Shown piece by piece: positions 21,776 to 62,616 of a stretch of 64,000 bases of DNA. The stretch's first letter is position 1. Every line of letters begins with the position of its first letter. Location of the stretch: positions 1 to 64,000 of the forward strand of contig JAGVUR010000209.1 of the NCBI GenBank assembly GCA_019136135.1, read 5' to 3'. A model generated the notes under the pieces. The model was not told the origin of the DNA. It ran no database searches and saw nothing but the letters and a program-made list of their open reading frames with translations. The DNA comes from Verrucomicrobiota bacterium (GTDB lineage: Bacteria; Verrucomicrobiota; Lentisphaeria; Oligosphaerales; Oligosphaeraceae). The translations under genes and the position numbers were made by a program.

Positions 21776-23134
21776 CTAGTGTTTGAAGTACTCGTCAACG
21801 GCTTTTCGGTGTCTAGGCTGGATTGTCTTGCCCTGGCTTTTGACTGGAGCCTTGGCTGGGTTCAGGTTGCCAGGTGTGTGTTGTTGAATGGGTTGGGCCT
21901 GTTGTGGTTCCGGGGGCGATTTTGCGACGCCCATGAGGATTGACCCTTCCTGGTCTGCCAATGCGCTCAGCGGGATGGATTTGTGTTTTGCGTTTTCGAA
22001 GCCCTTGGCCGTGTTGTCATAGGTCAATGGTGCCGTTGTTTGTTCGCCTCTGCTAATTCCTTGCATCCCGCCCTCTGGCAGGAGGTCTTGAAGTTGCACT
22101 GCCCCTGGCGCATTATTTTCCAGCCAAACCGCGAGCGATTCACAGCATCCTTCGCCATTTTCTTGATTGCATTCGCACTTTTTGAGTTTTGCTGCAATGG
22201 TCTTCTTCTGGTGGTTTTGCTTTTTGAGTTTCTCGATCAATTCTTTGATTTGTTCTTTAGTCAATTTTTGTGCTTGGCTATTGCCCTTGATGTCCTGGAG
22301 GAGCATTTCGAGGTCTTTGTCTGAGAGGACGAGCGTATCTAGAAGTTTAGCTAGTTCTTGCATTTCCGGGGATGAATCGAGTTTATCTTGTTTGAGCAGT
22401 TCCTCGAGCAGCGCCTCCAGGTTATCTCGTGTTTCGATTTGCTTTTCGATTTTAATCAGGCTTTGTTGTTCTGCGTAGTCAATCCTGGAATTGATTGAAT
22501 CGATAAGCTTGTAAACCTCGTCAGGCGCGGTCGCATCGTTTGCCTGGTCCAGTTGTTCGATGGCGTTGCTGATGCTTTCGAGTTGCTCTGTGATATCTTC
22601 GGATTGGTCTTTGAGCATGTCGAGCTTTTCTTGGAGTTGCTTCGTTTCTTCGGTCAGGTCGAGTTTGAACTGTTGTTGCGTTTTGTGTTCGATGGGGAAA
22701 ATTGCGGCGCCAATACAGAACAGGCAAGCGATCAGGGCATGGATGGCGCTTGTCTTCCAGTCGTGGAAGTGATTGACTTTCGGGATGCTGGGTTCTGGTG
22801 GTTGCCATGAACCCAGGCTTGTGTCTAGCGAGGTTGCCAGGAAACCGCCGGCATGGCTGTGTGCATCAAGCCAAACCAGGAGCTTGGCGGCGGAAGGAAG
22901 GTGCCGATGTGCCTCGATCCATGCCGCAAGCGCAACCAGCAAGGTGGAAAGAAGGAATGGAACGAGGTAGGTCGAAAGCATAAAGACAGAAGAAATGGTC
23001 AACCTGTGAACCAGGATGACCATTCCGTAAAACCAAATTTCCACCGTCAGGAAGCGAATGAGGGAACGGATGAATTCTGCCCAAAGCAATCGCTTCCTGA
23101 AGGTTTTAGCTTGTTGTATCAGAGCTTTGTCCAC
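21776..23134 (-). CDS. Membrane protein with long cytoplasmic or periplasmic coiled coil
   Basis: 452 aa from a GTG that lies within the 3' end of the oxidoreductase gene (16-base overlap). Three hydrophobic segments in the first 150 residues (about 22-42, 45-68 and 128-146), then a coiled coil from about 155 to 320 rich in Glu/Gln/Leu, a short cysteine cluster (KKCECNQENGEGCC, about 318-331) and a low-complexity tail rich in Pro/Gln. No family recognised. Position immediately before moxR, with 15 nt spacing, suggests a structural part of the same machine. The cysteine cluster could bind a metal. Confidence 0.6.
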   Translation of the reverse strand: MDKALIQQAKTFRKRLLWAEFIRSLIRFLTVEIWFYGMVILVHRLTISSVFMLSTYLVPFLLSTLLVALAAWIEAHRHLPSAAKLLVWLDAHSHAGGFLATSLDTSLGSWQPPEPSIPKVNHFHDWKTSAIHALIACLFCIGAAIFPIEHKTQQQFKLDLTEETKQLQEKLDMLKDQSEDITEQLESISNAIEQLDQANDATAPDEVYKLIDSINSRIDYAEQQSLIKIEKQIETRDNLEALLEELLKQDKLDSSPEMQELAKLLDTLVLSDKDLEMLLQDIKGNSQAQKLTKEQIKELIEKLKKQNHQKKTIAAKLKKCECNQENGEGCCESLAVWLENNAPGAVQLQDLLPEGGMQGISRGEQTTAPLTYDNTAKGFENAKHKSIPLSALADQEGSILMGVAKSPPEPQQAQPIQQHTPGNLNPAKAPVKSQGKTIQPRHRKAVDEYFKH

Positions 23135-61348: not shown

Positions 61349-61364
61349 GGGAAATCTCCTTGGT

Positions 61365-61562
61365 TCAATTGACTTGAATGAGTTCGCAAGGCTTGACAAT
61401 CAGTTTGGATTCGACTTCTTTCCTGATGTTTTTTTCCTGTTCTTGGCATGTGGCTTTAGCCAGGCTGAGGATTTCGTTTTCGTACTTGTTTGCTGGGTTG
61501 GCGGGAAAGGCGTCTGTGTTGAAGTAACCAATCGATTTTCGAAAGTTTTCGCAGGATTTCAT
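61365..61562 (-). CDS. Possible small charged protein
   Basis: 65 aa starting MKSCENFRKSIGYFNTDAFP and ending 16 nt before the GH29 start. It is rich in Lys/Glu/Asn with no recognised motif. The ribosome site is weak (GGGAT). It could be a leader peptide or chance. Confidence 0.3.
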   Translation of the reverse strand: MKSCENFRKSIGYFNTDAFPANPANKYENEILSLAKATCQEQEKNIRKEVESKLIVKPCELIQVN

Positions 61563-61617
61563 TATCCCATTACATAATGGTCGCGCTATCAACTGCCAAG
61601 TGCGGGAATCGTTTTCG

Positions 61618-61998
61618 TCATTTATCGGCGGGTGGGGCAGGGCAGTAGAGTTCGAAGAGCATTCTGATTGCTTCGCCGTGCTCGGGCTTGTCGGAGTAGC
61701 GATTGATCAGTTCACTTCGGTAGTCGTAATCAGTAATTGGCGTCAGGCCGGTTATTTCCTCATTGTTTTGGCTTTTCTCGACAGCTTCGAGGTTGGCCTT
61801 GGTGTTTTCGTCGTCGGGGAACACTTCCAGCGCCGCACGCAATTCCCGGATGGCGTCGTCCCTGCGTCCCAGGTAGGCATAGCAGAGACCGAGGGCGGCG
61901 CGGCATCGCGCCTTGTCGGGTTCTTCCTCCAGCATTTTCAGGAAGGCGTCGGCGGCGCGCTGTGGCTCCTTTGGCGTTATTTTCTCGTAGTATATCAT
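61618..61998 (-). pseudogene. TPR tail, in frame with the zinc-ribbon gene but after a TAG stop
   Basis: 126 codons. Two TPR-type helix pairs (PQRAADAFLKMLEEEPDKARCRAALGLCYAYLGRRDDAIRELRAALEVFPDD, about 12-63) and a helical tail. It begins with ATG immediately after, and in the same frame as, the TAG that ends the 61999-62616 frame. No ribosome site of its own is visible (upstream sequence AATCAGTAG). So this is either the 3' half of a gene broken by one nonsense mutation, or a natural stop-readthrough or reinitiation product. Confidence 0.75.
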
Positions 61999-62616
61999 CT
62001 ACTGATTGCGGATCATTGCTTCCTTGAGGGGGAAGAGTGCGCCGCTTTCATCGTACATCTCAGCCAGTTCAAGCAATCGGTCTTTGGCCTTGATATGGAG
62101 GTCATAGTTTGGCGGCGTCAGATTCACCACAATCTGCAAGGCGTCATAAGCGAAGGCGAGGTATCCCAACTCAAGCAACGCGCTGGACAGGTTGTACCAG
62201 GCGTAGAAAAAAAACGGGTAAAGCCAGATGGCGTCAAGAAGGTCCTCTATGACTTCTTCGTCATCTTGATAATACATGGAATTGATGACGCCCCGAGCGT
62301 AGAGATAGAAGGGGGAGCTGTCATCGGCGTAGGATTCCAGCGCCACCTCCGCTGCATCGAGGTCGCGCGTGAAAGCGAGTTCCTCAAGGATGTCGTGAAT
62401 GGTGTCCATGTGGGTGATATTGATGTTGAAGGGGTGTTTGCCGCTCGTGCGGAAACGGTCTATCATCGCGCGCATGCCGGCGATATAATGCTCGCAATCG
62501 GCGCAGGACGCATCCCGGCGGCTGACGCAGCATTCGGGGCAAATGCCTTTCCCACCCAAGGCGGGGCAAATTCGCTTGCTCTTGCGTTTTTCGCATATTG
62601 AACATGTATTTGACAT
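61999..62616 (-). CDS. Zinc-ribbon plus TPR-like protein, ended by in-frame TAG
   Basis: 205 aa. The N-terminus is a compact cysteine module, CSICEKRKSKRICPALGGKGICPECC...CADC (about 5-42), with seven cysteines that can hold two zinc ions. A helical repeat region (about 60-195, with ALLELGYLAFAYDALQIVVNLTP) looks like degenerate TPRs. The stop is TAG, and the very next in-frame codon begins the 61618-61998 frame. The full-length product would be about 332 aa. No pathway can be assigned. Confidence 0.75.
   Translation of the reverse strand: MSNTCSICEKRKSKRICPALGGKGICPECCVSRRDASCADCEHYIAGMRAMIDRFRTSGKHPFNINITHMDTIHDILEELAFTRDLDAAEVALESYADDSSPFYLYARGVINSMYYQDDEEVIEDLLDAIWLYPFFFYAWYNLSSALLELGYLAFAYDALQIVVNLTPPNYDLHIKAKDRLLELAEMYDESGALFPLKEAMIRNQ

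Follow-up and report, generated by a model that had tools for sequence, protein, structure and literature searches.

A zinc-ribbon/TPR gene in the window (i.e., the whole 64,000-nucleotide stretch of DNA analysed here) is interrupted by a single in-frame TAG that is followed at once by ATG, which raises the question of whether this locus holds one broken gene, one gene whose stop is decoded, or two parts that are translated in succession. It is encoded on the minus strand, a point absent from the initial annotation, and runs from 62616 to 61618; its translation gives 205 amino acids, a stop, 126 amino acids opening with Met, and a TGA, in a single frame throughout (Table 1). The two contiguous, same-frame parts split by TAG-ATG that had been described in the initial annotation are thus borne out by the translation and the codon positions. 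The upstream part carries eight cysteines that are invariant in the homologue alignment (C5, C8, C17, C26, C29, C30, C38, and C41) together with weak TPR matches, and the downstream part holds the best-scoring TPR repeats (TPR_19, E = 2.4e-7; TPR_2, E = 1.3e-6) and a C-terminal tail motif, EAIRMLF.LYCPAPP, that is strongly kept among the closer homologues.

Table 1. Features of the interrupted gene, in window coordinates
Feature	Position	Strand	Basis
Upstream part: 205 codons (62616-62002) and premature TAG; Cys-rich zinc-ribbon-like motif and first TPR helices	61999..62616	-	Translation, homologue alignment, weak TPR matches
In-frame TAG	62001-61999	-	Codon alignment; homologues have GCG, GCA, ACA, CGG, GCC
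ATG abutting TAG, possible reinitiation codon	61998-61996	-	Codon alignment; homologues have GCA, TTG, TTA, TTC, TTT
Downstream part: 126 codons (61998-61621); TPR repeats and conserved C-terminal tail	61618..61998	-	Translation, TPR matches, alignment
Final stop TGA	61620-61618	-	Translation

Comparison with relatives indicates that the two parts descend from one gene. A profile made from five uninterrupted homologues spans the whole interrupted frame (profile positions 2-333, E = 5e-166), with "1 TAG" reported inside it, and because this single profile aligns across both parts, they are more than two open frames that adjoin by chance. The sister genome (G003) holds an intact orthologue of exactly 332 codons, with GCG (Ala) where the window has TAG; identity is 95% across residues 1-205 and 93.7% across the entire frame. 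The two genomes also share the gene order at this place, where a 640-codon gene stands upstream and the downstream genes are alpha-L-fucosidase-like and GH36. The alignment to the sister gene is gap-free (999 versus 999 bases, 51 mismatches), so there is no frameshift beside the TAG. A 95%-identical match in L009 (Lentisphaeria bacterium UBA1407) was set aside as independent evidence, as it is apparently the same record as the sister genome.

A profile of the intact proteins, run against 48 genomes from the order and 198 from the class, recovered seven full-length or near-full-length homologues, all of them uninterrupted; the aligned homologues have sense codons at the place of the stop (Table 1). 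The initial annotation had proposed one ancestral chain of 332 amino acids and had named homologues that are consistently two separate proteins as the observation that would speak against it; such a pattern was looked for, and all seven homologues are single-chain. As the homologues are uninterrupted and the sister gene is intact at 332 codons, the ancestral protein was, judging from these alignments, one chain. A TAG-interrupted copy was found only in the window's genome among the 198 genomes of the class (one genome per species), and on this sequence comparison the stop is private to that genome among those searched. No copy of the gene was detected in three other genomes of the genus or in most of the family in the same kind of search, in which some assemblies are incomplete, and it seems to be an accessory gene that is readily lost and patchily distributed.

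We then consider how TAG is decoded in this genome, where it is an ordinary stop. Release factor 1 (RF1) is present and scores over its family cut-off, no CTA anticodon (i.e., a CUA-anticodon tRNA) was found by ARAGORN among 51 tRNA matches in a genome that is 88% complete and in which an odd tRNA could escape the model, and the pyrrolysine genes pylB and pylS gave only sub-threshold matches in this 88% complete genome, like those seen in ordinary control genomes. Nor is TAG depleted as a stop, as it terminates 21 of the 111 long ORFs sampled from the window plus seven further stretches of the genome, and in-frame extensions after it are not longer than those after TAA or TGA in these same ORFs (Mann-Whitney P = 0.96); further extensions behind TAG-ended genes, for which the initial annotation had proposed a check, are thus not in excess. 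Amber recoding by pyrrolysine or a suppressor tRNA would likewise show an in-frame TAG and conservation of the sequence beyond it, but none of its machinery was found in this genome, which has RF1. This explanation, offered as an alternative in the initial annotation, is contradicted, and for this 88% complete genome was rejected, on the evidence of RF1, the tRNA set, the lack of PylB or PylS matches above cut-off, and the ordinary usage of TAG. A literature search on pyrrolysine in Lentisphaerae found no paper mentioning Lentisphaerae. The longest extension in the sample, of 346 codons behind a TAG (window 21776-23134, minus strand), was considered as a second interrupted gene and rejected, since this stretch is the following gene, which has an ATG of its own; from reading its sequence, we take that gene to be a MoxR-like ATPase.

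Leaky or programmed readthrough, in which TAG would be decoded part of the time to give some full-length protein, is consistent with a downstream part that is intact and constrained, and has general precedent in the in-frame stops under purifying selection that have been reported to be widespread in bacterial genes (PMC7918605). The stop is conserved in no relative, however, neither suppressor tRNA nor pyrrolysine genes were found in a genome that has RF1, and no notable RNA structure was seen around the stop (z of 0.41 and 0.62), where a short GUAG/CUAC hairpin has a stability not beyond that of shuffled sequences. We consider readthrough very unlikely, and its programmed form, as raised in the initial annotation, has no support.

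The substitutions at the junction bear both on the origin of the stop and on its reality. TAG differs from the sister GCG by two base changes, and of the nine bases that begin with the stop, six are not those of the sister; when the mismatches were shuffled, clustering this strong arose in 0.045% of trials (P = 0.00045). The ATG, in turn, is one base away from the TTG (Leu) found in a homologue. With outgroups as the reference, the change from an Ala codon to TAG falls on the branch of the window, as does, probably, the change from TTG to ATG, and the two hydrophobic codons after the stop probably changed on the branch of the sister. Since changes are placed on both branches, this position looks tolerant of change, though it lies inside a predicted helix. 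A simple base-call error is unlikely because TAG is two changes away from the sister GCG and sits within a cluster of differences, and the sequencing error at 61999-62001 that had been named as a possible refutation is disfavoured on the same grounds. More broadly, an artefact of assembly or sequencing, or a variant from a minority strain that entered the consensus, might be suspected in a fragmented and incomplete genome (217 contigs, 88% complete) whose differences from the sister cluster exactly at the junction. Against this stand the two differing bases in the stop codon itself, the undisturbed frame with no indel, and the placement of part of the cluster on the branch of the sister, and we regard an artefact of this kind as highly improbable.

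What the stop would remove can be read from the predicted fold. The model of the intact sister protein (mean pLDDT 84, pTM 0.78) has a Cys-rich region at the N-terminus and, after it, successive TPR-like helices, and residue 206, at which the window's frame breaks, lies within helix 197-213 (pLDDT about 86-89). In this model, the stop cuts a TPR helix and not a domain boundary, with the loss of the end of helix 197-213, the best-scoring TPR repeats, and the conserved C-terminal tail. The helical repeat sequence and predicted fold resemble those of known TPR proteins (i.e., consensus TPR arrays, the OGT TPR domain, and MamA), whereas the N-terminal Cys-rich domain is an addition relative to all three. 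NCBIfam gave generic TPR matches only, below the curated cut-offs, a fold search against solved structures returned only TPR superhelices with low TM-scores of about 0.3, and no named family with the full architecture (Cys-rich and TPR) was found by either route. Separately, in a remote homologue from a different family of the class (L103, L105; G070:C300:18937-20529), two profile matches lie side by side within one 564-codon frame and suggest that the TPR part was duplicated internally.

Selection on the two parts was compared between the window and the sister genome. The dN/dS of the whole gene is 0.27 (NG86) or 0.43 (YN00), versus 0.05-0.18 for three neighbouring genes, and by this sequence measure the gene is less constrained and faster-evolving than its neighbours. 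By NG86, constraint behind the stop (dN 0.038, dS 0.160) is no weaker than ahead of it (dN 0.028, dS 0.093), with small numbers in both parts. The downstream part differs from the sister at 11 synonymous and 9 non-synonymous codons, and the clearly assignable non-synonymous changes behind the stop, again few, number one on the window's branch and five on the sister's. An undecayed downstream part implies either that the stop is recent or very recent, or that the downstream part is still made.

Taken with the intact full-length orthologues and a stop private to one genome, these results are best fitted by a recent nonsense mutation, one of the alternatives listed in the initial annotation, and we think it likely that a dispensable accessory zinc-ribbon/TPR gene now gives a truncated protein. 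A sense codon within a TPR helix (Ala in the sister) would have become TAG in the window's lineage, and translation would end there with a 205-residue product from which the final TPR repeats and the conserved C-terminal tail are missing. The normal function of the protein would therefore probably be lost or impaired; we infer that termination at this TAG is efficient and that the truncated protein is non-functional. The ATG that follows most likely came from a separate, conservative change from Leu to Met, its position directly behind the stop being probably a coincidence, and at best coupled reinitiation at this ATG would supply some of the second half. Counting against this reading are the lack of decay in the downstream part and the ATG exactly behind the stop, which could serve reinitiation. 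The locus otherwise resembles other nonsense-interrupted bacterial genes (i.e., recent pseudogenes or truncated alleles) in its single in-frame stop, intact sister orthologue, and undamaged remaining frame, and differs from the typical case in having ATG as the codon after the stop. The finding is of an ordinary sort, and as a nonsense allele it matters little, being a fast-evolving accessory gene that loses its function in one lineage.

Fragments of repeat proteins may in principle complement one another. The main rival to a nonsense mutation holds that ribosomes reinitiate at the adjacent ATG and that chains of 205 and 126 amino acids from one message reassemble via the broken TPR helix into a working protein. 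As termination-reinitiation coupling depends on genes that overlap or lie very close together (PMC10666635), the geometry of the junction, with ATG abutting TAG at zero gap, permits reinitiation, and the downstream part is still conserved. A translationally coupled gene pair would likewise show a near-coincident stop and start and one transcript direction, but its commonest arrangements are 4-nt or 1-nt overlaps and not a non-overlapping stop then ATG (PMC10666635), as is seen here, and this locus has no homologous two-gene arrangement and is cut inside a predicted helix instead of at a domain edge. Moreover, none of the seven full-length, single-chain homologues is split, the sequence directly before the ATG holds no Shine-Dalgarno-like stretch, and the ATG is a single base from a homologue's TTG. 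We therefore judge reinitiation unlikely, and decidedly more doubtful is the reading of a gene caught in fission, in which stop and start would have arisen side by side in a repeat helix and the coupled halves would come together again as a functional TPR protein. The locus would gain in importance if both halves proved to be co-translated and to reassemble, as it would then exemplify gene fission at a stop-start junction at a very early age, and the intact sister copy makes this reading testable.

Two further observations concern the layout of the locus. An antisense open frame of 333 codons on the plus strand (window 61600-62601) covers the whole interrupted gene, and the sister genome also has an antisense frame, of 397 codons (L009:5016-6209); both are probably by-products of codon composition. 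In addition, the sister genome lacks a segment of about 0.26 kb that separates the gene's final stop from the next gene (61362..61617, minus strand), and has 10 bases between the two genes at that place. The segment contains a 75-codon frame (61365-61592) for which 48 genomes of the order yielded no convincing relative, and it is either an insertion in the window's genome or a deletion in the sister.
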